Shown here: positions 12,346 to 34,926 of the stretch, in pieces
How positions within the stretch are numbered: the first letter of the stretch is position 1
Layout: each line of letters opens with the position of its first letter
NCBI GenBank assembly: GCA_027532555.1
Contig: JAPZTJ010000045.1
Location: 1-39,010 of the forward strand
DNA from: Aquidulcibacter sp.
GTDB lineage: Bacteria; Pseudomonadota; Alphaproteobacteria; Caulobacterales; Aquidulcibacteraceae
Length of the DNA: 39,010 nucleotides
Direction of reading: 5' to 3'
The notes under the pieces: generated by a model
The model's input: only the letters and a program-made list of their open reading frames with translations
What the model was told of the DNA's origin: nothing
Databases searched by the model: none
Made by a program: the position numbers and the translations under genes

Positions 12346-12389
12346 GGGAGCGTCCTTTCAAAATGGGCTCTGGGTTGCGTGATCGGCGA

Positions 12390-12722: not shown

Positions 12723-12931
12723 CTTTTTGCTCCAAATCGGGACGGATTGTGTCCTGGCTTTTTCTATGCATAAGCCGTGCCAGTTTCACCAATAAATTTC
12801 AAATTATATAATGGGTTAGTTGGTAAATTTGGGTGGCTCAACTGCCTGTATCGGGCCCATGCATGCACAGGTCCGGTAGGTAAAGTTCAGGGGATCGCGG
12901 ACGCGATTTTAGGCTTGCCATCCGGGTTCAC

Positions 12932-13897: not shown

Positions 13898-13902
13898 TTT
13901 GT

Positions 13903-14424: not shown

Positions 14425-14429
14425 GGGCC

Positions 14430-16472
14430 TTATCCTTCTCTTAGGCCTGCCAACTGCTCGCTCGCAGAAGGGAGGTTGTCATTGTGAATTGGCGCGGCTG
14501 GTTCTTGATATTCAGCGTTCGCGGCTGGTTTCGCCTCGGCGGTTTCGGCTCGCGGCGTAAACTCGCTCGGTGTGGGCTTGGCGTCTGCTTTGATCTCTGC
14601 GAGATCAGCCTGCTGGCGCTCGCGGGCCACGTCTTCGCTAAACTTGACCTTGGACGGATCGCCGTATCCAAATGGCTTATAGCTTGCCCAAGGATGGGCT
14701 GGCGCTTCTGGGGTATCCAGTTTCGCTGCCTGATTATGGGCTGGAATCATTGCGCGCTTCTTCATCCAGCCGATTTGGTCGTATCTGACTTTGGTGAGAC
14801 GATAAGGTCGATGGCCTGCAATGAACACAAGTTCATTCCTGTCTGGCAAAGAACCAATCTCGCTCGGATCCAAGAGAGGCCGCTCATACTCACCAATGCT
14901 GATTGAGCCGCCATTCTCGGTGTAGTTATGCGGGAGGTTGGCACTCGACCTCGTCGCGGTCGTCATACCAGTAAGCTTGGAGACTTTTTCACGCGTCAAA
15001 GGATCGAGTGCTGCAAAGGCGACATAGATATGGGCATTGTCGATGAAGCCATTATGCATGCCATAGACACGCGAGATGTCATTGAGGCTTTGGGCGATGA
15101 ATAGGCATTTGATGCCATAGCCGGATGCCAAGCGCACAACATCTTCAAAGAAATCAACTTTGCCAAGAAGCGGAAACTCATCAAGCGCCAACAACAAATT
15201 ATGCTTCTTAAGCAGTCCGTCGCTATCGGCCTCAATGTGGGTTGTGAAAGCCGTAGCCGCTAACTGAAAGAACATTCGGACAAGAGGCTGGAGGCTTTTG
15301 AGATCACCTGGCGCGATTTGTACATAAAGGCTCACGGGCGCGTTCGCGCACATCAAATCACCCAGTCGGAAGTCGCTGGTAGAGACAGCGTTTTCAACGT
15401 CTTCACCGACCAGCCAGGTCAGATAGGAACGCACTGTCATCTGGACGCTCTTGCGGCCCTTTTCATGGGTGAAGGCATAGGCGGTTGCGATATCATGTAC
15501 GAAAGGATGGACCTCGCCGCGACCGGAAGGGCCTTTAACATGCCAAGTTGACAGCATGGCGCGGACCGTCTCGTCGAGATTGGCGGTGAGGCGCTTGACT
15601 TCGATTAGCGTTTTGGGCCCGTCACAATGAAGCACGTGGACGATTAATGCTGAAAGCATTTCGCCCGCCTGCCGATCCCAAAAATCCTGGCTGGCAGAAT
15701 TGCCCTCATGGTTCACAAGGATCTTCACCAGTCGCTGAACTTGCGCCAGACAATCTCGCCCCGGACTGATCTCTGCCAGTGGGTTAAAGCGTGCTGTCGC
15801 TTCATAACGTGGATTGAAGAAAAGGACAGGCCCCTTCCGGTGGCGATAGCCGCTCGTTATGTCCCAAAGCTCGCCCTTGGGGTCAAACACTAGAGTTGAG
15901 GCGCTCCAATTGAGTAGGGTGGGCACAACAATCCCGCGTCCCTTGCCAGATCTTGTGCCGCCAGTGACCAAGGCAGGTCGCAAATCAGGGCTCACCAAAA
16001 GCCGTGGCCACATAAACCAGTCCGTGGCGAAACTTGGCGGCTCTATCCGCCCAAGGATGACACCTTCATCTCTACCAAGGCCAGCTTTGATCAGATCCTT
16101 TGGATTGCCCCAGCCTCTAGTCCGGCGTCGGGAGTTTTGTACGCCTGCGAGGCTTGTTCCCGAAGCGCTCGTCGGCGCATCGAACAGGCGGACGAGTAGG
16201 CCACCTAATGCAATACCGAGAATGATTGCAGGAACGCCAAGTTTTAGAACTGATTGATGGGCAAGTCTATCGCCCCACTTCTTCTGCCAGAGAAGGATGT
16301 TCCATGGCGGATAGAATTTGGCTGTGGCTTTGACTTGAGTACGCTCGCCAATCACAATGCCTTTGCCCAAGGCCGGCTGATACTGATAGCGCCAGGCAAC
16401 AATCTGGGTGGCGGCTGAAAGCCCGATAAGAGCTCCAACTCCAAGACAAGCGATCCGCGTACGAACTCCCAT
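14430..16472 (-). CDS. traG: TraG, VirD4-type coupling protein
   Basis: The type IV coupling protein brings the relaxase-DNA complex to the secretion channel and pumps DNA. I chose the ATG at 16472 (MGVRTRIACLGVGALIG...), because GGGGGAG lies about six bases upstream; an upstream in-frame ATG at 16487 would use that same sequence as coding. This gives 680 residues. N-terminal membrane helices lie at about 8-25 and 78-100. The ATPase domain has Walker A GGTRSGKGRG (Lys177), then PTLLNWSASTLVFDPKGE, and Walker B LLALDEFPLLGKVDF with FIAQSLNDISRVYG after it. The C-terminal tail is Ala/Glu/Pro-rich. It is the first gene of the conjugation operon. Confidence 0.93.
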   Translation of the reverse strand: MGVRTRIACLGVGALIGLSAATQIVAWRYQYQPALGKGIVIGERTQVKATAKFYPPWNILLWQKKWGDRLAHQSVLKLGVPAIILGIALGGLLVRLFDAPTSASGTSLAGVQNSRRRTRGWGNPKDLIKAGLGRDEGVILGRIEPPSFATDWFMWPRLLVSPDLRPALVTGGTRSGKGRGIVVPTLLNWSASTLVFDPKGELWDITSGYRHRKGPVLFFNPRYEATARFNPLAEISPGRDCLAQVQRLVKILVNHEGNSASQDFWDRQAGEMLSALIVHVLHCDGPKTLIEVKRLTANLDETVRAMLSTWHVKGPSGRGEVHPFVHDIATAYAFTHEKGRKSVQMTVRSYLTWLVGEDVENAVSTSDFRLGDLMCANAPVSLYVQIAPGDLKSLQPLVRMFFQLAATAFTTHIEADSDGLLKKHNLLLALDEFPLLGKVDFFEDVVRLASGYGIKCLFIAQSLNDISRVYGMHNGFIDNAHIYVAFAALDPLTREKVSKLTGMTTATRSSANLPHNYTENGGSISIGEYERPLLDPSEIGSLPDRNELVFIAGHRPYRLTKVRYDQIGWMKKRAMIPAHNQAAKLDTPEAPAHPWASYKPFGYGDPSKVKFSEDVARERQQADLAEIKADAKPTPSEFTPRAETAEAKPAANAEYQEPAAPIHNDNLPSASEQLAGLREG

Positions 16473-17021
16473 CCCTGTCTCCCCCATTAAGGACACAAAG
16501 AAAGGTCTTGCGTCCCATGGTTGACGCGGCTTGGCCGCACAGGCGGTCTCGCCGCAGGAACTTGCCCCAGCATAGATCATGCCACTTGTAATATTGGTCT
16601 GCACCCTGAGATAGGTGATACAAGATTAGTATATTTAATATTTAATTACAATGAGTTAGCAAGGTGAGCGATTATTGGAGCTTTCGCTTGCTGTCCTGAA
16701 ATGAATGCCAATATTTCCTGATTTGGCACAGCAGGTGTGCCCCGCAGATCCTATCAGAATGACTGATTAACCATGGTGTAGTTGATGCGCCATGCGGGCG
16801 AGCGTGAATTGTGCAACAGCGCGTGTGGTGAAGGAGGAATTGATCAAAAGCCAATTCGAGTTGCTAAGCCCGTTGCAAATATGATTGAGCTTGCCTTATC
16901 GTATTCATGCTCGAGAACACTCCCTACACATCCAAATAGCAAATGCCTAAGACCTGCTTTCTAGAGCGATAGCAGAAGAATGAAATTGAACTTAAAGCTG
17001 TAAGTATGGAGATGGGATCCA
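16473..17021. other. Intergenic region upstream of the conjugation operon
   Basis: About 550 bases without a credible gene separate traG (minus) from the small plus-strand gene at 17022. The part next to traG (16618-16655) is strongly A/T-rich and is the likely place for the operon promoter. A 60-codon open frame at 16782-16964 has no recognisable product. The coupling-protein side of such operons can hold an origin of transfer, but I see no strong inverted repeat with a nick-like motif here. Confidence 0.4.
16623..16651 (-). promoter_or_regulatory. Possible promoter of the conjugation operon
   Basis: Reading the minus strand, TTGTAA (16651-16646) and TAATCT (16628-16623) are separated by 17 bases of almost pure A/T sequence, about 150 bases upstream of the traG start. 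The spacing is ideal but the boxes are only moderate matches and A/T-rich DNA produces such matches by chance. Confidence 0.3.
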
Positions 17022-18562: not shown

Positions 18563-21500
18563 ATGAAAATAATTGACAATGTTAACTCGCTTTTGGGAGA
18601 CGATCTCAAGGGCTCACTCGCCAAAGGCTCTAAGCTCAAGATCGCAGCTTCATCCTTCTCAATCTACGCATATGAGGCGTTGAAGTCTGAGCTTTCCCGG
18701 ATCGAAAGCCTGGAGTTCATTTTTACAGCTCCAACGTTTGTGCCCAACGAAGTAACCGACAAGGTCAGCAAAGAGCGCCGAGAGTTCTTCATTCCGAAGG
18801 CAGGCCGAGAGAGCAATCTCTATGGCTCCGAATTTGAGATCCAGCTTCGTAACAAGCTGAACCAGCGAGCGGTCGCGCGCGAATGCGCTGAATGGATACG
18901 GAAGAAGGCCAAATTCCGATCAAACACCTCAAAAGCCCCGATGCAACAATTTGTCTGCGTAACGAGCTCGGCTGACGATGTAGCCTATATGCCTATTAAC
19001 GGATTCACCGCAGTGGATCTCGGGTATCAGCGAGGCAACGCCGTATCAAGTTTCGTAAATCGGTTTGATGAGGCCGTGCACACCGAAACTTACCTTCAGC
19101 TGTTTAATCAGATTTGGGTCGATCCAACAAAGATCGAAGATGTCACGGCGGCGATCTGCGATCATATCGAGAGCGTCTATCAAGAGAATTCTCCTGAGCG
19201 GATTTACTTCCTGATGCTCTACAACATCTTCAAAGACTTTCTCGAGGATGTCGATGAAGATGTCCTGCCCAATGACCGCACGGGATACCAGGACAGTTTG
19301 GTCTGGAACAAATTGTTTAACTTCCAGCGGGACGCGGCCACCGGTATAATCAATAAACTTGAAACCTATAACGGCTGCATTCTCGCCGACAGCGTTGGCT
19401 TGGGTAAGACGTTTACAGCTCTGGCTGTAATTAAGTATTACGAACTGCGCAATCGATCTGTGCTCGTCCTATGCCCAAAGAAACTATCCGACAACTGGCT
19501 AAACTATAGCACGAACCTAAAGACAAACATCTTCGCCAAGGACCGTTTCAACTATGACGTCCTTTGCCACACGGACCTTTCCAGGAACTCAGGCGTTTCT
19601 CATGGCATCCCGCTCAATAGGGTGAACTGGGGCAATTACGACCTCGTAGTAATCGACGAATCTCATAATTTCCGAAACAATGATGCGTTCAAGGAAAAGG
19701 AGACCCGGTACCAGAAGCTGATGAATCGAGTCATTCGTGACGGAGTAAAGACTAAAGTGCTGATGCTTTCGGCGACGCCAGTGAACAATCGATTCAACGA
19801 CCTGCGCAACCAGCTGGCACTAGCATATGAAGGACAGTCTGAGGAGCTCACGAAGAAGCTCAAGAGCAAGAACAGTGTTGAAGAAATTTTTCGCCGGGCA
19901 CAGGCCGCATTCAATGCTTGGTCCAAACTCCCCAACGAAGATCGCACGGCGCAGGCGATTCTGCAGGCTCTGGACTTCGACTTCTTCGAACTCCTGGACA
20001 GCGTCACGATCGCTAGATCACGCAAACACATCGAGACATTCTACGACACTACAGACATCGGAAAATTTCCGGAGCGTCGCAAGCCACTATCATTCCGGTG
20101 CCCCCTTACAAGCCGCCCGGGCGTAATGGACCTGAACGGCATCGTAGCTCAGCTAACCTTGCTCAAACTCGCGGTCTATGCCCCGATCAGCTATGTGCTG
20201 CCGAGCCGCCTTAGCAAATATGAGCAGCTCTACGACACCCAGGTTGAGGGCGGCCGCGGCAAGCTCCGACAGATCGACCGCGAGCGCAGCCTCCAGGCGC
20301 TCATGACGACGAACCTTCTTAAGCGGTTGGAGAGCTCGGTCGAGGCCTTCCGTTTGACCTTGAAGTCCCTTCAAGCAAACCTGAACAAGACCCTGGCGTC
20401 TATCACCGAGTTTGAACGCAATGGCGGCTCCCTTAAGGTGTCCGACTACACAGCAGACTTTGAGGACATGGAGCCCGAGGACGACGAGTTCGGGGACCTG
20501 GGCGATTTCAAGGTCGGGGGCAAGATCCAGATCAGCCTCTCGGACATGGACGTCCAGTCCTGGCAGCACGACCTTCGCTCCGACCTGTTCCTAATCGAGG
20601 AGTTAACCCGAGAGATGGAGCAGATCACGCCTGAGCACGACACCAAGCTCCAGCATCTCAAGACCCTGATCGCGAGCAAGATCGAGGCCCCGCTAAACCC
20701 GGGAAACAAGAAGGTCCTGATCTTCACGGCTTTTGCCGACACCGCCAACTACCTCTACGAAAACCTCGCGGCCGAGCTGCTGCGCACGAAGGGCCTGCAT
20801 ACCGGTCGCGTTACCGGCTCCGATGGTCCGAAATCCACCTTGGCCAAAGGCTATGACTTCCAATCGTTACTGACGCTGTTCTCGCCGCGATCGAAAGAGA
20901 AGGCCGCCACTCTGCCCGAGGAGCCGGCCGAGATTGATATCCTCATCGGTACCGACTGCATCTCCGAAGGCCAGAACCTTCAGGACTGCGACTACCTCGT
21001 GAACTACGACATTCACTGGAACCCAGTCCGGATCATCCAGCGTTTCGGCCGTATCGACCGCATCGGGTCACCGAACAGCCAGATCCAGCTGGCGAACTAT
21101 TGGCCGGACATCACTCTCGACGAATATATCAACCTGAAAGAGCGCGTCGAAAACCGGATGGTGATCGCCGATGTGACGGCGACGGGCGACGACAATGTCC
21201 TGACCGCAAAGAGCAGCGAGATCGCCTACCGCAAGGACCAACTGCGGCGCCTCCAGGACGAGGTCATCGAGCTGGAAGACGTCAAGACTGGCATCTCGAT
21301 CACCGACCTCGGCCTGAACGATTTCCGGATGGACTTGCTCAACTACGTGAAGGCCAACGGTGAACTAGAAAACGTGCCCCGAGGCATGCATGCCGTGGTC
21401 CCGGCTAAGCCTGAGCTGGGCCTGCAGCCAGGCGTGATCTTTGCGCTGCGCAACATTCACGATAGCGTGAACGCCAACCAGCAGAACCGCCTGCATCCCT

Positions 21501-21838
21501 ACTACCTGGTCTATATCGGCCGCGACGGCGAGATCATCGCTGACCACACAGAGGCCAAGCGGCTGCTCGATCTGGTCCGCACGAGCTGCAAAGGCGAGGA
21601 CGAGCCGATCCAGGCTGTCTGCCGCCTCTTTAACGAGCAGACCCAGGACGGCCGCAACATGGCGGGCTATTCCGACCTGCTCAGCTCGGCCATCCGGTCG
21701 ATGATCGAGGTGAAGGAAGAAAAGGACCTGGACAGCCTATTCAGCGGCGGCAGAACCACAGCGCTCACAAACACCATCGCAGGGCTCAGCGATTTCGAAC
21801 TGGTCGCCTTCATCGTAATCCTCGAGGACGCGCCATGA
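18563..21838 (+). CDS. SNF2-like helicase with N-terminal PLD-like domain, first gene of extended type III operon
   Basis: A protein of about 1091 residues. The ATG at 18563 follows GAGG by 8 bases. The N-terminal region (about 1-200) resembles the phospholipase D-like domain often fused to such helicases (LKIAASSFSIYAYEALKSEL, IEFIFTAP-like strand), but I see no HxKxxxxD catalytic motif, so it may serve for binding rather than cleavage. The superfamily 2 core follows: motif I DSVGLGKT (Lys282), DESH at residues 365-368, motif III MLSATPVNNR, and motif VI QRFGRIDRIG at 826-835, with a long helical insert between the two RecA domains (about 500-700). It overlaps the DUF4391 gene by 4 bases, so it belongs to the same operon as the type III enzymes. 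The first half is visibly less G/C-rich than the second. Confidence 0.85.
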   Translation: MKIIDNVNSLLGDDLKGSLAKGSKLKIAASSFSIYAYEALKSELSRIESLEFIFTAPTFVPNEVTDKVSKERREFFIPKAGRESNLYGSEFEIQLRNKLNQRAVARECAEWIRKKAKFRSNTSKAPMQQFVCVTSSADDVAYMPINGFTAVDLGYQRGNAVSSFVNRFDEAVHTETYLQLFNQIWVDPTKIEDVTAAICDHIESVYQENSPERIYFLMLYNIFKDFLEDVDEDVLPNDRTGYQDSLVWNKLFNFQRDAATGIINKLETYNGCILADSVGLGKTFTALAVIKYYELRNRSVLVLCPKKLSDNWLNYSTNLKTNIFAKDRFNYDVLCHTDLSRNSGVSHGIPLNRVNWGNYDLVVIDESHNFRNNDAFKEKETRYQKLMNRVIRDGVKTKVLMLSATPVNNRFNDLRNQLALAYEGQSEELTKKLKSKNSVEEIFRRAQAAFNAWSKLPNEDRTAQAILQALDFDFFELLDSVTIARSRKHIETFYDTTDIGKFPERRKPLSFRCPLTSRPGVMDLNGIVAQLTLLKLAVYAPISYVLPSRLSKYEQLYDTQVEGGRGKLRQIDRERSLQALMTTNLLKRLESSVEAFRLTLKSLQANLNKTLASITEFERNGGSLKVSDYTADFEDMEPEDDEFGDLGDFKVGGKIQISLSDMDVQSWQHDLRSDLFLIEELTREMEQITPEHDTKLQHLKTLIASKIEAPLNPGNKKVLIFTAFADTANYLYENLAAELLRTKGLHTGRVTGSDGPKSTLAKGYDFQSLLTLFSPRSKEKAATLPEEPAEIDILIGTDCISEGQNLQDCDYLVNYDIHWNPVRIIQRFGRIDRIGSPNSQIQLANYWPDITLDEYINLKERVENRMVIADVTATGDDNVLTAKSSEIAYRKDQLRRLQDEVIELEDVKTGISITDLGLNDFRMDLLNYVKANGELENVPRGMHAVVPAKPELGLQPGVIFALRNIHDSVNANQQNRLHPYYLVYIGRDGEIIADHTEAKRLLDLVRTSCKGEDEPIQAVCRLFNEQTQDGRNMAGYSDLLSSAIRSMIEVKEEKDLDSLFSGGRTTALTNTIAGLSDFELVAFIVILEDAP

Positions 21839-22530
21839 CGGCAGGCCTCTTCGACTATCCCAGGAGTGCTGCGTTCGGCCGGGTTCTGCCAAAGAACAAG
21901 ATCTATGAGCACGCCGGCGCAAGCTCGGCGCTGAAGCAGCTATTCGTCAATCAGGTCGACCAGATTGTCTGGCGGTTCAAGCTGGCACCCGAGACTATCA
22001 ACCTGGCCGCCACCTCGGCAGTCACGGAAATCCAGATCTTCGAAATCAGCCTGCGGACCGGCTCACCGGACGAAGACATCCTGCGGGCGATCGACCGGGC
22101 TATTCCTTTCCCGATCATCTTCGAACTGACCTGGTCCGGTAAGCGGCGCGCGACGGCCGCCTTCAAACGACCCAGTGAAGCTGATGCGTCGAAGTGGGTG
22201 ATCAGCGAGTATTTCTCGACCGACTGGATCAGCGAAGGTGGGCTGCGAGATGCGCTTCCCTTCGCGCTCGACCTCGGGGGGCTCTACGACAAGCTCCTAA
22301 CGGCGATGATGCCAGGCCTGGTCTGGACGGACGGCGCTATTCAGGAGCGTGTCGCTCGGCTCGAAGCGGTCCGGGCGCAAGCCCGTGAAATCGAGCGGAT
22401 CAAGTTGCGGCTTAACCGCGAGAAACAATTCAACAAACGCGTAGCGATCAACGCCGAGCTACGCGAAGCCAAAATGGAAATGGAACGGCTCACCCGGGCA
22501 GACGCACCGATGGCGGCCACGAGTGAGTAA
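21835..22530 (+). CDS. DUF4391 protein of the extended type III operon
   Basis: A 231-residue protein matching the DUF4391 family from recall: N-terminal FGRVLPKNKIYEHAGASSAL and LKQLFVNQVDQIVWRFKLAP, then PIIFELTWSGKRRATAAFKR, DALPFALDLGGLYDKLLTAM, and a C-terminal charged coiled coil (about 180-225, RAQAREIERIKLRLNREKQF). No catalytic motif is obvious. The family has no defined activity; in this setting it is likely an adaptor between the helicase and the other subunits. The ATG overlaps the helicase stop (ATGA) and the end overlaps or abuts the methyltransferase gene, so all are cotranscribed. Confidence 0.82.
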   Translation: MTAGLFDYPRSAAFGRVLPKNKIYEHAGASSALKQLFVNQVDQIVWRFKLAPETINLAATSAVTEIQIFEISLRTGSPDEDILRAIDRAIPFPIIFELTWSGKRRATAAFKRPSEADASKWVISEYFSTDWISEGGLRDALPFALDLGGLYDKLLTAMMPGLVWTDGAIQERVARLEAVRAQAREIERIKLRLNREKQFNKRVAINAELREAKMEMERLTRADAPMAATSE

Positions 22531-22543
22531 GGGGACGACGACG

Positions 22544-24433
22544 ATGGATAAGCTCAAGATGCACAGCCCGAACCTAACGGACGAGAACGTCGCGATGATC
22601 CGCGATATGTTTCCGAGCTGCGTCACCGAAGCCGCGGATGAGACGGGTAAGCTTCGGTGGGTGGTGGATTTTCATAGTCTAAGCCAGGAGCTGAGTGACT
22701 ATATCGTCGATGGTGGGCAAGAGCGTTATCACCTCAATTGGCCCGGTAAGCGCGAAGCCTTAATTATCTCAAACGCGCCCATTGCAAAAACATTACGCCC
22801 TGCGCCGAGTGAGAGCTTAGAATACGCAAATACAAAGAACCTTCTTATTGAAGGCGATAATCTTGATGCATTGAAATTGCTACAAGATACTTATCTTGGT
22901 CAAATAAAAATGATCTATATTGACCCGCCATATAACACCGGGAACGACTTCGTTTACGATGACCGATTTTCCCAAGGATCTAGTAAGTACTTGGAGATGT
23001 CTTCGCAATTAGATGCCGATGGAAATAGGCTGATAGCAAACACATCAGCAAACGGTCGTTTCCATTCCGACTGGCTGTCTATGATCTATCCGCGCCTGAG
23101 GCTTGCAAAAAAGCTTTTGAAAGAAGACGGCCTAATAATTATTAGCATCGATGATGTGGAGTCGAGTGGTCTCAGGCTCCTCTGTGATGAGGTTTTTGGA
23201 AGAGAGAATTTTGTTGCACAGTTTATATGGAAGTCGCGCGTAAGCGAAGACACCCGGGCGACATCAGGTGTTTCGACGGACCACGAATACCTCGTTTGCT
23301 ACTCCCGCAGTGACAGCGCTTATTTCCGCGGTTCCGAGAAAGACGTAAACAAATTTTCTAATCCAGATGACGATCCAAGGGGGCCGTGGCGTTCTGCAGA
23401 CCTGACGGGACTGGCCACAAAAGACGCTCGACCGAACCTTCACTACGATCTCATCGACCCGAAAACCGAGATTAACTACGGGTGTCCGCCGAAGGGTTGG
23501 CGTTTCGAGCCCCGAACAATGGAACAAAAAATCCGGGAGGGTCGGGTTTTGTTTCCCAGTAGTGTCGATGGTCGTCCACGGCACAAATTGTTCATGAATG
23601 AGATGAAAAGTCTCTTTAAGAATATATCTTCTGTCGTGAGCGGATTTAGCACCGCCGACGGGACGAGGGAACTAAACTCTCTAATGGGAGGTGTTGCATT
23701 TACATTCCCCAAACCAACGGCTCTAATTAAGTTGTTTGTTGAGCAGATAACTCAAGAAGATGATATTGTTTTGGATTTTTTTGCAGGATCGGGAACGACT
23801 GCAGATGGCGTAATGCAGCAGTGCGCAGCAGACGGACTGTCAAGGAAATTCATACTTGTACAGATTCCGGAAAAACTCGATCGGGAAAGCCCCGCTCAGG
23901 GTACCGCTGCGGAGTTCTGCGACAAACTCGGCGTGCCAAGAAACATCGCTGAGCTCACAAAGGAGCGCGTTCGCCGCGCTGGGGCTAGGATTATTGAACG
24001 GCCAAGGCACCCAAGCTGGAACGCCGACGTTGGCTTTCGCGTACTAAAGGTAGATACCTCAAACATGCAGGACGTCTTCTACCGTCCGGATGAAGTCGGC
24101 CAGGCCGATCTGCTCGCTGCAGTCGATAACATCAAGCCCGACCGGACCCCCGAGGACTTGTTGTTCCAGGTGCTGGTCGATTGGGGTGTCGATCTGACTT
24201 TGCCTATCCGCCGCGAGACGATCCACGGCAAGACAGTGTTCTTCGTAGACGACAATGCTCTGGCCGCATGTTTCGACAGCGGCGTGACTGAAGAACTGGT
24301 CAAGCAGCTGGCCGGCCATGTGCCGCTCCGCATGGTGTTCCGCGACAACGGTTTTGTGTCGGACGCCGTCAAGATCAACGTGGAGCAGATCTTCCGCCAG
24401 CTTTCCCCCAACACCGACATCAAGTCGATCTGA
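22544..24433 (+). CDS. mod: Type III restriction-modification DNA methyltransferase (Mod)
   Basis: A beta-class N6-adenine DNA methyltransferase, the modification and recognition subunit of a type III system, needed also for Res activity. I chose ATG 22544 ([10 protein letters not shown]) with AAGGGG about 9 bases upstream; a GTG at 22523 overlaps the DUF4391 gene. It has 629 residues. Motif [11 protein letters not shown] is at residues 127-135 and the AdoMet motif DFFAGSGTT at 411-419; motif IV before motif I marks the beta class, with the target recognition domain between them. The stretch from about 22760 to 24050 is clearly A/T-richer than both ends of the gene, as if the catalytic and recognition core had been replaced by recombination. 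Res starts 11 bases downstream. Confidence 0.93.
22760..24050. other. Compositionally distinct core of the mod gene
   Basis: By eye, codons in this segment favour A/T at the third position (for example runs such as AATCTTGATGCATTGAAATT), while the sequence just before it (21840-22740) and just after it (24060-24430) uses mostly G/C. The segment contains both catalytic motifs and the target recognition region. Exact breakpoints cannot be set by eye. Confidence 0.6.
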
Positions 24434-24444
24434 GGGGCCATGGC

Positions 24445-27400
24445 ATGAAGTTCAAATTCAAGGTCCAGCCCTATCAGACTGACGCTGTGGAGGCAGTCGT
24501 CGACTGTTTTGCCGGGCAGCCGATGACAGGGGGTATCATCTACCGGATCGACCCTGGCCGCAAGGCGCAGACCAGCGCCTTCGAGGAAGGCTTCAAGAAC
24601 GCCGACCTTCAGCTGACCGAGCCTCAGGTCCTGGCGAACATCAAGGACATCCAGCGTCGCCAGAACCTGCCCATCTCGGACGGCTTGGTCGCCAGCGCGG
24701 GGTGCAAGATCAACCTCGACGTCGAGATGGAGACAGGGACCGGTAAAACATATTGCTACATCAAGACCATGTTCGAGATGAACAAGCGATATGGCTGGTC
24801 CAAGTTCATTATCATGGTCCCGAGCATTGCGATCCGGGAGGGCGTCTATAAGTCCCTCCAGATCACCGCGGACCATTTCACCGAAAGCTACGGCAAGAAG
24901 GCGCGCTTCTTCATCTACAATTCAAAGCGCCTGCACGAGCTGGAGAGTTTTTCGTCTGACGCCGGCATCAACGTCATGGTCATAAACATCCAGGCGTTCG
25001 CCGCCAGGGGTGCTGACAACCGCCGGATCTACGACGAGCTCGATGACTTTCAGTCTCGGCGGCCCATCGATGTGATCGCCAGCAACCGGCCGATCGTGAT
25101 CCTGGACGAGCCGCAGAAGATGGAGGGCAAGGCGACGACGGAGTCCCTGCCGAAGTTCAAGCCGCTGATGATCCTGCGCTATTCAGCGACCCATAAGACT
25201 CAGCACAACCGGGTTCACCGTCTGGATGCGTTGGACGCCTATAACCAGAAGCTGGTGAAGAAGATCTCCGTGCGCGGCATCCAGACCCGCGGCCTGGCTG
25301 GGACCAATGCCTACCTCTATCTCGAAGGGATCGACATCTCGAAGAAGGCGCCGGTCGCCCGCGTAGAGCTGGAAATCAAGCTCAAGACCGGCGAGATCAA
25401 GCGTCAGGTCCGCCGGCTGGAATTCCGCGACGACCTGTTCACGCTATCAGGTGACCTTGATCAGTACCGGGGCTTCACCATCTCTCAGATCGACTATAAC
25501 AACGATACCGTCGAATTCACCAATGGCGTAATCCTGTCGGCCGGCGAGGCCACTGGTGACGTGTCCGAGCGGGATATCCGTCGCATCCAGATCCGGGAGA
25601 CGATCAAAGCGCATTTCGACAAGGAAAAGCAGCTCTTCTCTCAAGGCATCAAGGTGCTGTCCCTGTTCTTCATCGACGAGGTCGCCAAGTACCGCGACTA
25701 CGATCAGGCGGATGAAAAGGGAGAGTACGCCCGCGTTTTCGAGGAGGAATATGAGCTCCTGAAAGCAGAATACCTGTCGGAGCTGGCGATCGACAACGAG
25801 GCCTATCGCAAGCACCTGGCCGGCATCGACGCCGCCAAGACCCACAACGGTTACTTCTCGATCGACAAGAAGACCAACCGGCTGAAGAATCCGGATGTCG
25901 GGGCAAAGTCCGTCGATTCCGACGACACGGATGCCTATGACCTGATCCTGAAGGACAAAGAGCGGCTGCTGTCCTTCGCCGAAGCGACTCGGTTCATCTT
26001 TTCCCACTCCGCGCTTCGCGAAGGGTGGGACAATCCGAACGTCTTCGTGATGTGTATGCTAAAGCACAGCGACAACATGATTTCGCGGCGGCAGGAAGTC
26101 GGTCGAGGGCTACGCCTGTCGGTCAACCAGGATGGCGATCGCATGGACCATCCTGCGGTAGTCCATGACATCAACGTCCTGACCGTGGTGGCCAGCGAGA
26201 GCTACAAGGACTTTGTCGGGGGGCTCCAGAAAGAGATTGCCGATACCTTGTCCGCGCGACCGCGCGTTGCCAACGAAGCTTACTTCAAAGGAAAAGTGCT
26301 CGAAACTGAAGGCGGTAAGATCGAGGTTTCGGCCAACATGGCAGCCGGAATAGAGTTTTATCTCGTGCAAAATGGCTATGTGGATCGCCAGAAAGCGATC
26401 GCCGGAAAGTATCACGAAGCGCGAAACAAGGGCGAATTGGCCGAATTACCTGATGACCTTAAGCCGTATGCCGATCAGATGTTCCAGCTGATCGACAGCG
26501 TGTTCAGCGGCGCCCAATTGCCTAAGGTAGAAGATGGTCGAAAGCCGAAGACCAATCCACTGAACACCAATTTCGAAAAGAAAGAATTCCAGGAGCTCTG
26601 GAGCCGAATTAACCGCAAAGCCGTCTATCGCGTGGAGTTTGATTCCAGCGAGCTCATTCGAAAATGCGTCGGTGCGCTCGATAGCCAGCTCCGGGTCACG
26701 CCACTGCAGTACACCGTCCAAACTGGCATGCAGATTGCGGAAATTACAGACAATCAGCTAAGGGCTGGCGACGGCTTCAAGGTGACTAGTACAACCACAC
26801 AAAGCGGTGGGTCGGTCTATTCGCAGGTAAAGTACGACCTGCTGGGCAAGGTTGCTGAAAATGCGCGCCTCACCCGCCAGACTGTTGCACAAATCCTGAC
26901 TGGGATGGAGCCAAGCATCTTTGCTCAGTTCCGCCAGAACCCCGAGCATTTCATTGCCGAGGCTTCTAGGATCATTTCTGAGCAGAAGGCCACAATGGTC
27001 ATCGAGCGCCTGGCTTACGACGGCGTCAATGACCGCTTTGAGGTCGACATTTTCACGGCCAACCAGTCGGGTCAGGACTTCTCCAAGGTTGGCTCGAAAC
27101 TTAAGAACCATATCTATGATTACGTTGTTACCGACTCGGACATTGAGCGGCGGTTTGTGGAGGAGCTTGATGCTAGCGACGAGGTCGTCGTCTACGCAAA
27201 GCTTCCTCGTGGGTTCCTAATCCCGACCCCTGTCGGCGACTATAACCCAGACTGGGCGATCTCATTTAAGGTCGGCTTGGTCAAGCACGTTTACTTCGTT
27301 GCTGAGACTAAGGGGACTATGTCCTCGCTGAAGCTGCGAGAGATCGAGTCCACTAAGATCGCATGCGCAAAGAAGTTCTTCGAGACAATAGGTCAGAGCA

Positions 27401-27501
27401 CATCCACCGATCCGGTCCGGTACGATGTCGTTACAGACTACGGGAAATTGATGGAAGTTGTCGGTGTCAGCCGTTTTGCGTCGACCGGCCCGCCGGCTTA
27501 A
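24445..27501 (+). CDS. res: Type III restriction endonuclease subunit (Res)
   Basis: The 1018-residue helicase-nuclease subunit of a type III system: with Mod it uses ATP to communicate along DNA and cut away from the site. Start ATG 24445 follows GAGGGG by 8 bases. Superfamily 2 motifs: EMETGTGKT with Walker A at residues 96-102, DEPQ at about 221-224 (the type III form of DExx), [22 protein letters not shown] and motif [11 protein letters not shown] near residue 553. The C-terminal PD-(D/E)XK nuclease shows GDYNPDWAI (Asp935) and AETKG (Glu954, Lys956). Length matches EcoP1I-like Res subunits. All expected catalytic residues are present, so it should be active. The part after about 26250 is less G/C-rich than the first half. 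Confidence 0.94.
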
Positions 27502-27540
27502 TGGCTGTAATTGCCGATTGCCGATACTTAGGAGGCTTTG

Positions 27541-28629
27541 ATGCCGATTTATGAATTGCGCCAGAACTGTTTAACCCCTTTAAACGCGACCAGCTTTGAG
27601 ATTGAGCGTTTGAGTGAGCGCTGGGATATTCAGCGGCTACTAAGAGACCGGATTGAGTGCTTAGAGGACGGCCTAATGGTGCTTGCAGAGGAGTTTAGTG
27701 ACTGGCAAGATAGCAATCGTCGGATAGACCTACTCTGCCTCGACACTGAAGCGAATTTAGTGGTGGTGGAGCTCAAGCGAACGCTCGATGGCGGCCACAT
27801 GGAGCTACAAGCGATACGTTATGCCGCGATGGTCTCAGGTATGAGGTTCGAGCAAGCAGTGGATGCATATGCTCGGTTTCGAGCCCAAATTGAACGAGCG
27901 GCAGCAGACCATGATGCAGCGCGGTCGCAAATTTTAGCTTTTCTGAACTGGGCCGAGCCGATTGAGGATGACTTCGCTCAGGACACGCGAATAATTTTAG
28001 CGTCGGCCGATTTCAGCAAGGAACTAACTACGTCTGTGATGTGGTTAAGGGATAGGGAGATAGACATACGATGCGTACGCTTAAAGCCCTATCGACTTGA
28101 AGACAGCCGCATGTTGATCGATATTCAGCAATTAATCCCGCTGCCAGAGGCCGCAGAATTTCAAACCCAAATCGGTGCCAAAAGGCAGGCTGTGCGAAAG
28201 GAACGCGTGGAGAGACACGACCTACGTTATCGCTTCTGGGATGGTCTGCTTTCTAAGGCCAAGGAAAACAACCCAGTGCACGCAAATCGGTCCCCCTCCA
28301 AGGATACTTGGATCAGCGGCAGCATTGGCCGAACCGGGTTTTCAATCAGTTACACACTCCGTCAACGAGACAACAATGTGCACCTCTGGATCGCAAATAA
28401 TAAAGCGGCTTACGATAGTTTGTTAAACCAGAAAGCGGAAATTGAGGAGGAGTTCGGAGCGCCCCTAATTTGGAAAGAGGCTGAAGGTCAAATGGGTCGT
28501 ACAATATCCTTTCCGCAACAAGGGGGATATCGATCCGACCCCGAAGAGTGGCCTGCCATCCAAGAAAGGATGATTGACGCCATGCTGAGGCTGGACTCTG
28601 CTTTGCGTGCCCGGGTGCAGGCTCTATAA
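27541..28629 (+). CDS. NucS/DUF91-like nuclease domain with C-terminal DUF4268
   Basis: A 362-residue protein beginning at ATG 27541, which has a perfect AGGAGG five bases upstream. The N-terminal domain (about 1-125) carries a PD-(D/E)XK core: NRRIDLL with Asp63, then VVVELKR with Glu77 and Lys79, followed by ELQAIRYAAM, as in NucS/DUF91-like nucleases. The C-terminal part, from about residue 225 (LRYRFWDGLLSKAKE), with SISYTLRQRDNNVHLWI, fits DUF4268. It follows res by 39 bases on the same strand, so it may be a fifth member of the operon or an independent nuclease. Its function is not established; proteins of this type are common in defence islands. Confidence 0.75.
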   Translation: MPIYELRQNCLTPLNATSFEIERLSERWDIQRLLRDRIECLEDGLMVLAEEFSDWQDSNRRIDLLCLDTEANLVVVELKRTLDGGHMELQAIRYAAMVSGMRFEQAVDAYARFRAQIERAAADHDAARSQILAFLNWAEPIEDDFAQDTRIILASADFSKELTTSVMWLRDREIDIRCVRLKPYRLEDSRMLIDIQQLIPLPEAAEFQTQIGAKRQAVRKERVERHDLRYRFWDGLLSKAKENNPVHANRSPSKDTWISGSIGRTGFSISYTLRQRDNNVHLWIANNKAAYDSLLNQKAEIEEEFGAPLIWKEAEGQMGRTISFPQQGGYRSDPEEWPAIQERMIDAMLRLDSALRARVQAL

Positions 28630-28964
28630 GCCCATTCTTTTGGAGATTCCGCAGGGGTCAATAGAATCTTGAAACGTGACTCTAGCCGGTACGCGAATTT
28701 CATAGGCTTCGGAAAAAGCTAGGTCAGTGCTACCGGAAGAGTTGCTCACCACCCTTCGTCAGCTCGTAATGAATGGGCTCCATCCAGGATAGTTCTCAAT
28801 TTAAGATTGTTGCCATCACTCAGCCTTAGCGTTACGAAGCCTTAGACTTAGTGTTGCAAAAAATGCATCAGCCACAGTCTTCAATTATGAATTTATCAGC
28901 TGCGCTCGCTGGAATTAGAGTCAATGATTGGCAGCCTAACATTCAGATTAGGATCGGAAATCCA
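28630..28964. other. Intergenic region before the McrA-like gene, with a short direct repeat
   Basis: No gene is seen in these 335 bases. The octamer AGCCTTAG occurs twice, at 28822-28829 and 28838-28845, 16 bases apart, followed by ACTTAG at 28847-28852. This near-tandem arrangement upstream of the next gene could be a regulator binding site, but the repeats are short and it may be chance. No terminator with a clear T-run was found after the preceding gene. Confidence 0.35.
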
Positions 28965-30761
28965 ATGGCTCGAGCGCATATAACTTATGAAGCTGTTCTA
29001 AGCGCTATCACTGAGTTCGATTCACTCGGACGGGACGCCTTTCTTGCGAACTACGGCTTTGGGCCGGCGCGTGACTACATGCTTGTTTTTCAAGGCAAGC
29101 ATTACGACTCGAAAGCAATTACCGCAGTTGCTCATAAATGGGCCCCTGATGGCGGCGGTAAACCCCTAACCAATCAGGAACTCAGTGGTGGTCAAAGCGA
29201 TTCAGTCAAACTGCTACGCCAATTAGGTTTCGAAGTGACACAACCTGATCAAAATTCAGATTGGACTTGGGACGAGCACGTACTCGCGTTGAGCCTTTAT
29301 ATGGCCAACCCTGCTTCACCGCCTTCCAAAGGGAGTCCAGAAATCCGGGACCTATCATTGCTCCTGAATCGCCTTGGCAGACAGCGGGGTGTGGCGATGT
29401 CCGAGACATTTCGTAACCCAAATGGCGTGTACATGAAGTTGATGAACTTTCGCCGCCTTGATCCTGTGTTTGCGGCGCAAGGCAAAGTTGGACTTGGACG
29501 CGGCAACAAAGGAGAGGAATCTGTCTGGGACCGATTCAAAGATGACTTAGTCGGGCTTAAGGCCAAAGCCGCGGAGATTAAAGAGCAAATCGAACTTGGT
29601 TCCGCTTTACCTGCCCAGCTTGAAAGAGGTCCGCAACTATTCAATGAGAATGCGCTTGCGACTGAATTTGAAAGGTTCAAAAGCCTAATTTTAGCAAATG
29701 AGGGGCGGTCATTTCGAAATTTCCAGGAAGGCTTAGCAGCCACTTGGGAGGGCTATAAACCCAGCCTCCGTGAGCGAGCGCTTGATTTGCTTGACGCTGA
29801 GAGCTGGTCTGAGGGTGATGTTGGAACAGGAGCAATCCTAGAGAAAGCGATTGCAGCAATAGAAATTCAGGACCAAGCACCTAAGCTCACCAATAACTTG
29901 GTATTTTGGCAGAACCGATTTGGACACGCCAATCGAGAACATCGTGTCTTTATTGAAGCGCAAACTGAGGCATCCCAAAGAAAGAAATTAGAGTTCTTGT
30001 TATTCCAGCTTTACCGGGGCGACATGGATGAGGGTGCGCTGTTTGATGAGCTGATCGACCTTGTCGGAGCCAAGTATCCCCTTCTTGCTTATCTGTTTTT
30101 TCTAAAAGACATTGAGCGTTTCGCTCCAATTCAACCGACCACCTTTGACGGCGCATTCCAAAAACTTGGTGTTTCGCACATCTCGTCGAGAAACTGTTCC
30201 TGGGAGAATTATTTCCGTTTCAATGCTGTTCTTGAGCAAATTCGTGAAGCTTTGAGCCAGATTAAAGGCATTGGGTCGCCCCGACTAATCGATGCACACT
30301 CATTCTGCTGGCTACTCGTTAAACTTCCGAGCCAGCCTATAGCGCCTCGGGAAACTCGAAAGAATCCCGGCCGAGTTATCGGCGGGGCTGAAAAGTCAGT
30401 CGTTGTGATGCGTCACTCAATTCAAAGCACGACACAAAACGCTAATGGCCAGCTCGTCGAGCGTACGCTGAAGAATAAAGACCTGCTGATGAACGCCCAA
30501 CAGCTTGATAGGCTGTTGGCGAGTTTGCTGGAGGTCCAGGATAATCGTTGCGCGCTGACTGGCATTCCCTTTCATTTTCACGGCCCAGACGCCGATCGTA
30601 AACTGCTGCCATCCCCAGACCGCATCGATAGCAACGGTCACTATGAACATGGCAATCTCCAAATTGTGTGCCAGTTCATAAATTTTTGGAAACGAGACAC
30701 CCCTGACGATGAATTTAGGAGGTTGCTAATGCTGGTCCGCGGTTCTGAGGGCATGGACTGA
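28965..30761 (+). CDS. McrA-like HNH endonuclease, putative type IV restriction enzyme
   Basis: I chose ATG 28965 (MARAHITYEAVLSAITEFDS), the start of a ScoMcrA-like N-terminal head domain (LGRDAFLANYGFGPARDYML, then GKHYDSKAITAVAHKWA), with CGGAA six bases upstream; the open frame starts earlier but without family resemblance. The 598-residue product continues with a block typical of McrA-like nucleases (TWDEHVLALSLYMANP, LSLLLNRLGRQRG), a helical middle region, and an HNH/McrA-type C-terminal nuclease: CALTG (Cys529), SPDRIDSNGHYEHGNLQIVC with Asp552 and Cys569, and FINFWKRDT. ScoMcrA of Streptomyces cuts phosphorothioated and methylated DNA; whether this enzyme senses any modification is inferred. 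The mrr gene follows after 26 bases. Confidence 0.78.
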   Translation: MARAHITYEAVLSAITEFDSLGRDAFLANYGFGPARDYMLVFQGKHYDSKAITAVAHKWAPDGGGKPLTNQELSGGQSDSVKLLRQLGFEVTQPDQNSDWTWDEHVLALSLYMANPASPPSKGSPEIRDLSLLLNRLGRQRGVAMSETFRNPNGVYMKLMNFRRLDPVFAAQGKVGLGRGNKGEESVWDRFKDDLVGLKAKAAEIKEQIELGSALPAQLERGPQLFNENALATEFERFKSLILANEGRSFRNFQEGLAATWEGYKPSLRERALDLLDAESWSEGDVGTGAILEKAIAAIEIQDQAPKLTNNLVFWQNRFGHANREHRVFIEAQTEASQRKKLEFLLFQLYRGDMDEGALFDELIDLVGAKYPLLAYLFFLKDIERFAPIQPTTFDGAFQKLGVSHISSRNCSWENYFRFNAVLEQIREALSQIKGIGSPRLIDAHSFCWLLVKLPSQPIAPRETRKNPGRVIGGAEKSVVVMRHSIQSTTQNANGQLVERTLKNKDLLMNAQQLDRLLASLLEVQDNRCALTGIPFHFHGPDADRKLLPSPDRIDSNGHYEHGNLQIVCQFINFWKRDTPDDEFRRLLMLVRGSEGMD

Positions 30762-30787: not shown

Positions 30788-31714
30788 ATGGCCATTCCTG
30801 ATTATCAAACACTCATGCTTCCGGTTCTTTCCGTTGCCGCTCAAGGTGAAACCCGTGTCCCAGAAGCCGCCGAGGTGATTGCAAACCAACTGGGGCTTAC
30901 CAGCGACGAGCGTGAGCAAATGCTACCGAGCGGAACACAAAGGCTTCTGCACAACCGGATACATTGGGCCAAATTCTATCTGACAAAGGCCGGCCTGATT
31001 GTGAGTCCAAAGCGCGGGCTCTTTAGCGCGAGCGCAATCGGACGCAATTTACTTGCTACTCGACCAAGCCGAATCGACGTTGAAACGCTTAAGACCTATC
31101 CGGCATTCGCCGCATTCCACAAAGCAAGTTCGGCAGGATCAGGCCGCAATGATGCTCCGGCAGTCGAAGCTGCTTCAGTTTCGGCTGCCACCCCAGAAGA
31201 ACAAGTTGACGCGGCTTACTCGGTTCTCACTGCAGCGCTCAAAGCCGAACTCTTGAACAGAATTCTCGAGCAGACGCCGACGTTCTTTGAGCGTGTCATT
31301 GTCGATTTGCTGGTTGCCATGGGGTATGGCGGTTCCCATGAAAATGCTGCCATGCGACTTGGCAAGAGCGGCGATGGTGGCATCGATGGCATTGTCGACG
31401 AAGACAGACTTGGTCTTGATCGGATTTATCTTCAAGCGAAGCGCTATGCCATTGGTTCAAGCGTTGGACGGCCAGAGATCCAAGCCTTTGTAGGAAGCCT
31501 TGTTGGCCTAGGCGCGACCAAGGGTGTTTTTGTGACAACATCAAGCTTCAGCACCCCGGCCATGGAATTTGTGCGTGGCCTCCAACAGCGCATCGTTCTT
31601 ATCGACGGCGCAAGACTTACAGAATTGATGGTTGAGTTTGGAGTGGGCGTCAGGATCAACCGAACAATCGAATTCAAACGATTGGACGAAGATTTTTTTG
31701 CCGACAACGAATAG
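30788..31714 (+). CDS. mrr: Mrr-type restriction endonuclease
   Basis: A 308-residue Mrr-family nuclease. The N-terminal domain (about 1-95) is the Mrr winged-helix DNA-binding domain (MAIPDYQTLMLPVLSVAAQG, WAKFYLTKAGLI, RGLFSASAIGRNLL). A variable linker leads to the C-terminal catalytic domain: FFERVIVDLLVAMGYGG, then GKSGDGGIDGIV with Asp196 and Asp200, and LQAKRY with Gln216 and Lys218, which is the Mrr form of the PD-(D/E)XK site, followed by VGRPEIQAFVGSLVGLGATK and FVTTSSFS. Mrr enzymes cut methylated DNA. It is in tandem with the McrA-like gene, giving two putative modification-dependent nucleases side by side. Length and motifs indicate an intact gene. Confidence 0.9.
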   Translation: MAIPDYQTLMLPVLSVAAQGETRVPEAAEVIANQLGLTSDEREQMLPSGTQRLLHNRIHWAKFYLTKAGLIVSPKRGLFSASAIGRNLLATRPSRIDVETLKTYPAFAAFHKASSAGSGRNDAPAVEAASVSAATPEEQVDAAYSVLTAALKAELLNRILEQTPTFFERVIVDLLVAMGYGGSHENAAMRLGKSGDGGIDGIVDEDRLGLDRIYLQAKRYAIGSSVGRPEIQAFVGSLVGLGATKGVFVTTSSFSTPAMEFVRGLQQRIVLIDGARLTELMVEFGVGVRINRTIEFKRLDEDFFADNE

Positions 31715-31753
31715 GCGAAGCGTACCCAATTCGCGGTTTTTGACTACGCATCC

Positions 31754-31914
31754 GCTGCCCCCATCGGCCCAAAATCCCTGCACCCCTGCCCGTCTACCCG
31801 CAACCATTCGGTCGGGCGCTCACGCTTCCGCCCCGGTCTGGACAGGACGAGACTACCGGGGTGCGGGTAGGCAATCAGGGGTGCGGTTTGTTGATCTCGG
31901 CCGATGGGGGCGGC
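31754..31914. repeat. Large nested inverted repeat upstream of ardC
   Basis: Three pairs of arms face each other in register. Outer: GCTGCCCCCATCGGCC (31754-31769) against GGCCGATGGGGGCGGC (31899-31914), 15 of 16 matching. Middle: GCACCCCTG (31780-31788) against CAGGGGTGC (31876-31884), perfect. Inner: CTACCCGCA (31794-31802) against TGCGGGTAG (31862-31870), perfect. Five unpaired bases separate middle and inner arms on both sides. A further hairpin, CCCCGGT (31831-31837) with ACCGGGG (31855-31861), sits in the loop. Such nested structure is typical of origins of transfer, single-strand promoters or replication sites rather than coding DNA. Confidence 0.8.
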
Positions 31915-31918
31915 GCGA

Positions 31919-31945
31919 GCTCATCGTGAGCATTGCGTAACGCAA
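31919..31945 (+). promoter_or_regulatory. Small palindromes between the large repeat and ardC
   Basis: GCTCA-TCG-TGAGC (31919-31931) is a perfect five-base-pair hairpin, and TTGCGT-A-ACGCAA (31933-31945) is a perfect palindrome with six-base arms. The second has the look of an operator site for a dimeric repressor. Both lie within 55 bases of the ardC start codon. Confidence 0.45.
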
Positions 31946-31954
31946 AATCCCATC

Positions 31955-31970
31955 GGCGGAGGTCTCCGCC
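31955..31970 (+). promoter_or_regulatory. Hairpin covering the ardC ribosome binding site
   Basis: GGCGGA (31955-31960) and TCCGCC (31965-31970) pair perfectly around GGTC, and this stem contains the GGAGG ribosome binding site at 31958-31962 and ends on the base before the ATG. It would be expected to reduce translation unless opened. CCCATCGG at 31949-31956 can also pair with CCGATGGG at 31901-31908, a segment otherwise used by the outer arm of the large repeat, so two alternative folds are possible. Confidence 0.5.
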
Positions 31971-33026
31971 ATGTCACTTACGATCGCTGCATCTCATCAC
32001 GCCCGCTATTCATCAGCGTCCGATGAAGTCCGTCTAACACCCCATGAGCGTGTCACCGCTCAAATCAGCTCCCTTTTGGAGCGCGGTGTTCGCCCGTGGA
32101 TCAAGCCATGGGATGATATTGTCCATCCTGATGCACTGGTCTTGCCGCTACGTTCCTGCGGAACGCCCTATCGCGGGATGAATATCATCGCTCTTTGGGC
32201 TGCTTCTCTGGAAAGTGGCTTCAGGTCACGCCATTGGTTCACCTTCAAACAAGCCTTGGCCATGAAGGCGTGCGTCCGCAAAGGTGAGCGTGGATCCTTT
32301 GTCGTTTATTATACCGAAGCGGGCGATAAATCAGAAAGTGACGGCAAGCCTTATCGGGTTCCCAAGTCCACGAGTGCCAACGGCGATGAGATTGGTGAAA
32401 CCCGGCGAATCCTGCGCGGCTATACCGTCTTCAATGCCGAACAGATCGAAGGTCTGCCTGAATCCTTCTATGCGGCTCCTGAAGCGCCAGTTGTTCCGCC
32501 TACTCCAATCAACATCAGCGAAGATGAGGCCCGTTGGGCTTCTCTCTTCGCGCGCATCCCCGTCACCCTACGCCATGGTGGCAATCGGGCCTTCTATTCC
32601 AAAGCCGCTGACTACATCCAAATGCCCCTTCGCGAGGCTTTTCGCGATGGCAGCCAATATTGGGCAACGCTTGCTCATGAGGCCGCCCATGCCTCGCGTC
32701 ATGAGACACGCCTCAACCGTGACTTCGGCCAGACCCGCTTTGGCGATGCGGGCTATGCGGTGGAAGAGCTTGTTGCGGAGCTTGCCAGTGCTTTCATCGG
32801 CGCACACATCGGCCTACCCGCTGATCATCTCGAAGATCATGCCGCCTACATTGATGGGTGGCTGAAGGTCCTCGGCGATAATCCATCGTCGTTCCTAATC
32901 GCCGCCAGCAAGGCCCAGGCTGCAGCTGACTGGGTTGTAGCTGAGATGGGGGTGGAATCGAACACCAGAAAGCAGACGCTTCAGAATTCCGATTTTGGCA
33001 ATAACCGAGGTGCGACGGACTGTTAG
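31971..33026 (+). CDS. ardC: ArdC-like antirestriction protein with zincin metallopeptidase domain
   Basis: A 351-residue ArdC-family protein. The N-terminal domain (about 20-150) is the ArdC single-stranded-DNA-binding domain (RVTAQISSLLERGVRPWIKP, YRGMNIIALWAASLESGF, WFTFKQALAMKACVRKGERG). The C-terminal metallopeptidase domain has the zinc motif HEAAH at residues 236-240 followed by SRHETRLNRDFG and YAVEELVAELASAFIG, which supplies the third zinc ligand region. ArdC of plasmids such as pSa protects entering DNA from host restriction after conjugation. Its own promoter region is unusually structured. It is encoded between restriction systems of this element, so it may also spare the element from its own or the recipient's nucleases. 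The last ~20 residues (NTRKQTLQNSDF...) look non-conserved. Confidence 0.9.
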   Translation: MSLTIAASHHARYSSASDEVRLTPHERVTAQISSLLERGVRPWIKPWDDIVHPDALVLPLRSCGTPYRGMNIIALWAASLESGFRSRHWFTFKQALAMKACVRKGERGSFVVYYTEAGDKSESDGKPYRVPKSTSANGDEIGETRRILRGYTVFNAEQIEGLPESFYAAPEAPVVPPTPINISEDEARWASLFARIPVTLRHGGNRAFYSKAADYIQMPLREAFRDGSQYWATLAHEAAHASRHETRLNRDFGQTRFGDAGYAVEELVAELASAFIGAHIGLPADHLEDHAAYIDGWLKVLGDNPSSFLIAASKAQAAADWVVAEMGVESNTRKQTLQNSDFGNNRGATDC

Positions 33027-33219
33027 GTTTTGGGGGACGTAGCACGAAAGCTGCCATCGCTAGAATCGAGCGACTGACCGCTAATCTGTTGCCGTTCGGG
33101 TCAGATCTGACGTGAAGCGGCAAGATAGCTGTCCCTCCGCCGAGGTTAGAACTTCGCTGAGTGGAGCAAAAATCGACATCAGATTGCCGAATCATGGCAG
33201 ACTCACTTATGGTCACTTG

Positions 33220-34758: not shown

Positions 34759-34926
34759 TTAAGGCATTGGGTTATTTTGACAATTGTAATAGTCGGAACG
34801 AGTCCTTCACGGTTAGCTTACGGGGGGCGAATCAATTGTGCTCCGCCGACCTCAGTCCGATCTGGTGCGGACTGTGGTGTGTCAGGCCTCCCATCGGAAG
34901 AGATATAGCCCTGCTTGGGGGGGATT

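Follow-up and report, generated by a model that had tools for sequence, protein, structure and literature searches.

A recurrent SNF2 helicase–DUF4391–Mod–Res gene order in an Aquidulcibacter contig and a candidate four-gene variant of type III restriction–modification

The closest described relatives of the locus reported here are the type III restriction–modification (R-M) enzymes EcoP15I and EcoP1I, which combine a beta-class methyltransferase, Mod, with Res, a protein carrying a superfamily 2 (SF2) motor and a PD-(D/E)XK nuclease, and in which mod precedes res. All of these features are shared by an operon in the 39,010-nt stretch of Aquidulcibacter sp. DNA analysed here, hereafter the window (assembly GCA_027532555.1, contig JAPZTJ010000045.1, positions 1–39,010, forward strand); however, this operon adds two genes upstream, encoding an SNF2-family helicase and a DUF4391 protein. 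These four genes are found together at other loci far more often than expected by chance. With somewhat less than even confidence, we read them as a four-gene type III R-M variant in which the SNF2–DUF4391 pair would form an ATP-driven, specificity-blind module acting on the ends of Mod and on Res.

Helicases reminiscent of that in the window are found in several other defence systems. The PADLOC model C3a139 ('HKD+Snf2') matches it almost end to end (E value 7.9e-130), but the HKD motif of the phospholipase D (PLD)-like domain has been lost from the window protein. SauUSI, the best structural match, also joins a PLD domain to a helicase, whereas the window helicase lacks the catalytic motif and is accompanied by type III partners. 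DISARM DrmD is likewise an SNF2-family defence helicase, although the match to it is distant (156.6 bits versus a cut-off of 610), and PADLOC returned no DrmA, DrmB or DrmC match for DUF4391, Res or the next two genes, nor among the 25 of 41 Mod matches listed. SWI2/SNF2 or HKD helicases also occur in predicted restriction operons with MORC/MutL-like ATPases; the four window genes include no MORC-like gene, and their gene set is not described in the accessible portion of that report (PMC2292703). We found no description of the four-gene arrangement in an open-access library, outside which most subscription journals lie.

A recurrent four-gene unit and its junctions

The window contains five open reading frames (ORFs) on the same strand (18563–28629, + strand), and ORF coordinates, Pfam and PADLOC bore out the families first assigned to them. 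The helicase gene (18563..21838) encodes 1091 aa from its ATG, with a TTG upstream at 18560; the product comprises a PLD-like domain without catalytic motif (approximately residues 1–205) and an intact helicase core (approximately residues 268–836; Pfam SNF2-rel_dom and Helicase_C). A 4-base ATGA overlap joins it to the DUF4391 gene (21835..22530; PF14335, E value 2.7e-56), which encodes a putative adaptor. Mod (22523..24433) is predicted to be a type III beta-class adenine methyltransferase (MTase; PF01555 (N6_N4_Mtase), E value 3.1e-32; PADLOC MTase_III, E value 1.3e-220); its GTG start gives an 8-base overlap with DUF4391, and use of an in-frame ATG at 22544 would instead leave a 13-base gap. 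After 11 bases follows res (24445..27501), encoding an SF2 helicase with a C-terminal PD-(D/E)XK nuclease (PF19778, E value 2.1e-32; PADLOC REase_III, 1128 bits), and the pair thus has the domains and gene order of a type III system. Among 94 complete loci, DPPY was present in 93 Mod sequences, motif I in the form F[AS]GS[GA] in 64 only, GxGKT in every Res and PD..ExK in 93, as well as in the window.

The order helicase–DUF4391–mod–res had been expected to recur in other genomes, and neighbourhood counts confirmed that it does. DUF4391 served as the search anchor, so its neighbours were free of selection. The 131 sources scanned were drawn from an evenly drawn phylum sample of 398 genomes (DUF4391 in 22), the best 80 of 391 genome relatives, 23 viral-contig loci and five plasmid loci (from five of 48 plasmid records); 127 lay above the DUF4391 score cut, and L046, L151, L154 and L155 were dropped, although L151 has all four genes. 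SNF2, DUF4391, Mod and Res genes stood in the same order and on the same strand in 104/127 loci, most of the remaining 23 being cut by contig ends. Where enough flank was available, SNF2 lay upstream in 118/118 loci, Mod downstream in 102/103 and Res in 95/97. The exceptions were L124, which has a partial Mod and no Res, and L033, the sole locus of the phylum sample (L026–L047, otherwise in agreement) with a 3′ flank but neither Mod nor Res; on one plasmid (L052), insertion sequences break up the helicase and Mod genes. From the helicase side, SNF2 matches were strong (347 bits or more) in 20 genomes of the phylum sample, 19 of which also have DUF4391; in the twentieth (G071, locus L213), the helicase is paired with an Eco57I-type MTase.

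The genome relatives, being the best 80 of 391, bias the set towards close relatives, and the counts are not all independent, since some loci share identical DNA (L041/L115/L116, L054/L055, L137/L139 and L145/L146). No fusion of DUF4391 to a partner was seen, as none of the 590 ORFs with a family match carries two families. In Escherichia coli, a search at near-identity found the operon in 10/5426 genomes, one being the query's own record; the carriers may be SSU5-like phage-plasmids.

On chromosomes, plasmids and viral contigs alike, linkage and order were therefore near-absolute in the loci examined, and the homologues of the two upstream genes were not found mostly away from mod–res. This argues against an ordinary type III R-M system with two passenger genes in front, an explanation that we consider very unlikely even though Mod and Res seem to make up a complete type III enzyme and are found by themselves at other loci.

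The original prediction had extended the operon to the fifth gene (27541..28629), which encodes a DUF4268/NucS-like putative nuclease (PF14088, E value 8.4e-26; PADLOC candidate PDC-S11, E value 3.5e-118) with a NucS-like N-terminus and a NucS_C match below its cut-off. A five-gene system with this protein as a second working nuclease would agree with its D..ExK pattern and with the position of its ATG, 39 bases past the Res stop on the same strand and preceded by a strong ribosome binding site (AGGAGG). However, of the 95 loci whose sequence extends 1200 bases or more past Res, the window is the only one in which the gene adjoins Res, and the gene is thus not conserved beside mod–res. Moreover, DNA similarity between the window and its close relatives L053, L054 and L055 runs from 18537 to the end of Res (27473–27497) and no further; similarity to L056 ends within Res, which is incomplete in that record. 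The operons of L054 and L055, which are identical in DNA, both carry a DUF4357-family gene in the same slot. We accordingly rejected the five-gene unit, consider a second nuclease highly improbable and regard the DUF4268 gene as a neighbour in a variable slot, outside the recurrent unit. In L087, a match to the DUF4268 hidden Markov model, without a Pfam match, lies on the strand opposite the helicase, approximately 3.7 kb away. Elsewhere, the slot is occupied by DUF4357-family genes (12 loci as grouped by clustering; Pfam was run on two, with GIY-YIG in one) and by OLD-like, SIR2, Mrr and GmrSD genes.

Genes are also inserted inside the operon. Gaps of more than 350 bases separate DUF4391 from Mod in 20 loci and Mod from Res in 30 (44/127 loci in all), and 34 of the 44 gapped loci contain an ORF of 140 codons or more on the same strand. 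Representatives of these nested genes encode SLFN/AlbA_2 (a cluster of 11 loci, with Pfam run on two), Fic, RhuM, GmrSD, OLD-like, DUF2130, UvrD-like and Zeta-like proteins, a SIR2-HerA pair and PADLOC PDC-S46. The operon junctions, inside and after, thus often house other defence genes.

The helicase and the DUF4391 protein

The first gene product had been described as a PLD/SNF2 helicase, a name of which the fold stands in the predicted structure and the nuclease does not. Pfam detects no PLD domain in the helicase; the AlphaFold2 model of its first 257 residues (predicted local distance difference test (pLDDT) 71) nevertheless resembles a PLD-like fold. Foldseek returned two matches at an E value of 0.001 or below, both to SauUSI (best E value 4.4e-5, query template modelling (TM)-score 0.42), followed near 0.001 by phosphatidylserine synthase and the NgoAVII R protein; TM-scores were modest. 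The catalytic HxK...GSxN motif was absent from all 113 helicases linked to DUF4391 (Mod is visible at 110 of these loci), and an active PLD nuclease was hence discarded. Walker A and DEAH patterns were present in all 113 and motif VI in 110.

Homologous helicases were also found beside large Eco57I/Type ISP-like DNA MTases (L213, L220–L224, L226, L246 and L247; Pfam covered the MTases of L213, L220, L226, L246 and L247, five of the nine). Unlike the window unit, these pairs lack Mod–Res and have an intact PLD motif, which was kept in 9/9 of the helicases read; in the alignment, one of six MTase-linked rows has gaps in the H and K columns, although its own sequence has the motif. The L237 helicase, whose partner is beyond view, also has it. 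As the motif is lost in DUF4391-linked helicases and kept in their MTase-linked relatives, the window helicase seems to be a motor that has shed its ancestral nuclease, with Res as the likely cutter. The simplest reading is that the PLD nuclease was dropped once Res brought its own.

Three further arrangements were noted among the relatives. At L213:12660–16734, the Eco57I-type MTase is encoded in two overlapping frames adjoining the intact-motif PLD-SNF2 helicase. At L245:7938–13553, an SNF2 relative of 1465 aa that lacks the HxK motif, and in which hhalign detected no DUF4391, lies beside a DpnII-MboI-like restriction endonuclease. On a Parabacteroides plasmid (L248:688–10817), the annotation gives an SNF2-related protein and an N-6 DNA methylase flanked by RNA-binding-domain and TIR-domain proteins.

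The AlphaFold2 model of DUF4391 (pLDDT 89.6, predicted TM-score 0.83) consists of an alpha/beta domain with a C-terminal helical hairpin. Assignment to a known fold was set aside, as neither PDB nor BFVD contained a match at an E value of 0.001 or below, and PADLOC gave no match at 0.01. Residues invariant in 58 sequences include K20, W46, E65, E196, Q198 and N206. A stretch of the L213 Eco57I-type MTase weakly resembles DUF4391 (PF14335, E value 0.0064, below the cut-off; hhalign probabilities 51, 74 and 71 %), a likeness that hints at an adaptor function. The earlier proposal that DUF4391 couples the helicase to Mod–Res is therefore retained in the form that it may do so. Further DUF4391-like MTase N-domains were scarce: of two viral-contig scans, one confirmed 0/27 candidates and the other returned no match; none was found in phages; plasmids yielded only Planktothrix and, further down the search chain, Parabacteroides; and genomes yielded 2/398, one being the query's own.

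Mod as a mosaic

Pairwise distances across the 94 complete loci, evaluated against 500 label permutations, were closely correlated among SNF2, DUF4391 and Res (rho 0.90–0.92) and less so between whole Mod and these three (0.71–0.73). The difference lies in particular segments of Mod. Its N-terminal domain (NTD; residues 1–60, 22523..22702) and C-terminal domain (CTD; residues 505–636, 24035..24430) co-vary with SNF2, DUF4391 and Res (rho 0.67 and 0.90, respectively), whereas values for the first MTase block, the target recognition domain (TRD) and the second MTase block were 0.27, −0.05 and −0.01. Permutation maxima did not exceed 0.26 for any segment, and the weak value of the first MTase block still lies above its own maximum of 0.20.

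The MTase/TRD core (residues 61–490, 22703..23992) appears to have been exchanged among otherwise similar operons. The window differs from L053–L055 by 3 % in SNF2 and 7–8 % in Res versus 50–52 % in the Mod core, and its DNA identity to L054 is 48–69 % in the bins from 22576 to 24081. Likewise, when three E. coli copies were compared with L048, stretches of 200 bases outside Mod averaged 98.6–99.3 % identity and those in the Mod core 49–79 %, with the BLAST pieces that reach into Mod at 95.6–97.7 %. These distances and identities show Mod to be a mosaic: its MTase/TRD core is exchangeable, and its ends vary with SNF2, DUF4391 and Res.

Exchange of recognition domains between mod genes is known, and the modA alleles of Neisseria and Haemophilus share it with the present operons (PMC3311624); by contrast, the block exchanged here includes the MTase motifs, and SNF2 and DUF4391 stay with the ends of Mod. 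According to the structural report on EcoP15I (PMC4490356), Res is contacted by the Mod CTD, and dimerisation involves the NTDs and MTase domains; compared by residue number and unaligned, the Mod domain order in the window is the same as in EcoP15I and the segment borders are close to those given there.

The same correlations bear on whether SNF2–DUF4391 could be a separate defence arm or a guard of Mod–Res that becomes active when Res is blocked. Such guards have a precedent in PrrC, which guards a type I system (PMC12707154), and other defence genes do occupy the operon junctions. Unlike these nested genes, however, SNF2–DUF4391 hardly changes position and varies together with Res; all 113 helicases have lost the PLD motif and Pfam identifies no toxin-like domain, so that we find a guard quite unlikely.

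The possible role of the SNF2–DUF4391 module

In the four-gene variant that we tentatively favour, Mod would read its site and methylate it, and Res, held by the Mod CTD, would cut with its PD-(D/E)XK nuclease. The SNF2 helicase, with its dead PLD domain, and DUF4391 would attach to the constant parts, namely the Mod NTD and CTD and Res, with DUF4391 linking the helicase to Mod and Res. The pair would add ATP-driven translocation or remodelling, for example past bound proteins or over longer distances, enabling Res to cut. Swapping of the MTase/TRD core would confer a new specificity and leave the rest unchanged, the core being exchangeable because the module would be independent of it. We infer that the proteins form a physical complex and that the whole operon would restrict phage.

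Several observations weigh against such a variant. Mod–Res occurs without SNF2 or DUF4391 in reach at L196, L202, L203 and L210–L212, and a DrmD-like SNF2 gene lies upstream of Mod–Res without DUF4391 at L194, L206, L214 and L215, the Res matches of the last two being weak. On a Res tree of 20 rows, excluding those of undetermined label, the four-gene label changes state five times, of which four or more are forced. With the undetermined rows included (29 rows, of which 10 are four-gene after a strict redundancy cut and nine undetermined are counted as lacking the unit; long branches meet in this tree), there are six changes, at least five of them forced. A single origin of the label was not supported, given these repeated changes; together with the occurrence of Mod–Res alone, they indicate that the module is unnecessary for type III restriction as such. 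Correlated distances are also expected from joint inheritance without contact, the fold of DUF4391 does not reveal its function and the link between DUF4391 and MTase N-domains is weak. Finally, no partners were found beside the weak matches to the last 53 residues of DUF4391 in the dropped L154 and L155, the latter with approximately 5 kb and 10 kb of flank.

Variation in gene content was also seen within these type III loci: AIPR lies between the helicase and Mod in L214 and L215, accompanied by RhuM in L215, and more than one Mod-like gene precedes Res in L119, L133 and L205.

Because Mod–Res occurs alone and the reverse is hardly ever the case, SNF2–DUF4391 seems to need Mod–Res and not vice versa. 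This one-way dependence would also suit a regulator or safety device that restrains Res on the host's own DNA or holds restriction back until the genome has been methylated, as would the position of SNF2 and DUF4391 at the start of the operon and the existence of type III systems without the module. Retention of the motor patterns in 113/113 helicases is, however, much for a brake, and no regulatory domain was given by Pfam; we therefore think a regulator unlikely.

A bolder form of the four-gene reading, which we hold to be doubtful, is that SNF2–DUF4391 is the real motor, making a diffusing type III enzyme translocate, with MTase/TRD cassettes swapped in and out of a constant motor–nuclease frame. 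DUF4391 would then be a universal plug that joins the PLD-SNF2 lineage to MTases, either within Eco57I-type MTases or free beside Mod–Res.

The surroundings of the operon identify the window as a defence island beside conjugation genes. The gene downstream of DUF4268 (28851–30761) encodes a protein of 636 aa, for which PADLOC gives matches to the type IV mREase (E value 9.6e-15) and HNH (E value 2e-11) families and Pfam gives none at 0.01. A defence-like run follows (30788–38027), comprising Mrr (30788–31714), the antirestriction protein ArdC (31971–33026), Shedu SduA (33112–34758) and an OLD/AAA and UvrD-like pair (34915–38027) that resembles Gabija. Upstream are an AbiEi/AbiEii-like toxin–antitoxin pair (987–2463) and, on the minus strand, type IV secretion genes (7175–16604; TrbL, TrbE-like, T2SSE and a TraG-like coupling protein), pointing to a putative conjugative element.

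The Mod mosaic, the defence genes at the junctions and the intact-PLD helicases paired with single-chain MTases go beyond the original prediction. The four-gene unit offers a test case for why a second motor is retained alongside a restriction enzyme that is self-sufficient, the E. coli copies provide natural differences in the Mod core on one frame, and the operon junctions reveal where further defence genes get inserted. If SNF2–DUF4391 were the real motor, the unit would belong in a mechanistic class of its own among ATP-dependent restriction enzymes. In the phylum sample, 40/398 genomes have a strong match to the type III Res domain, scoring 85 bits or more, and 21 of these 40 also have DUF4391 (on the same contig in 17 and on different contigs in four); type III systems taught as two-gene systems may therefore often be four-gene systems.

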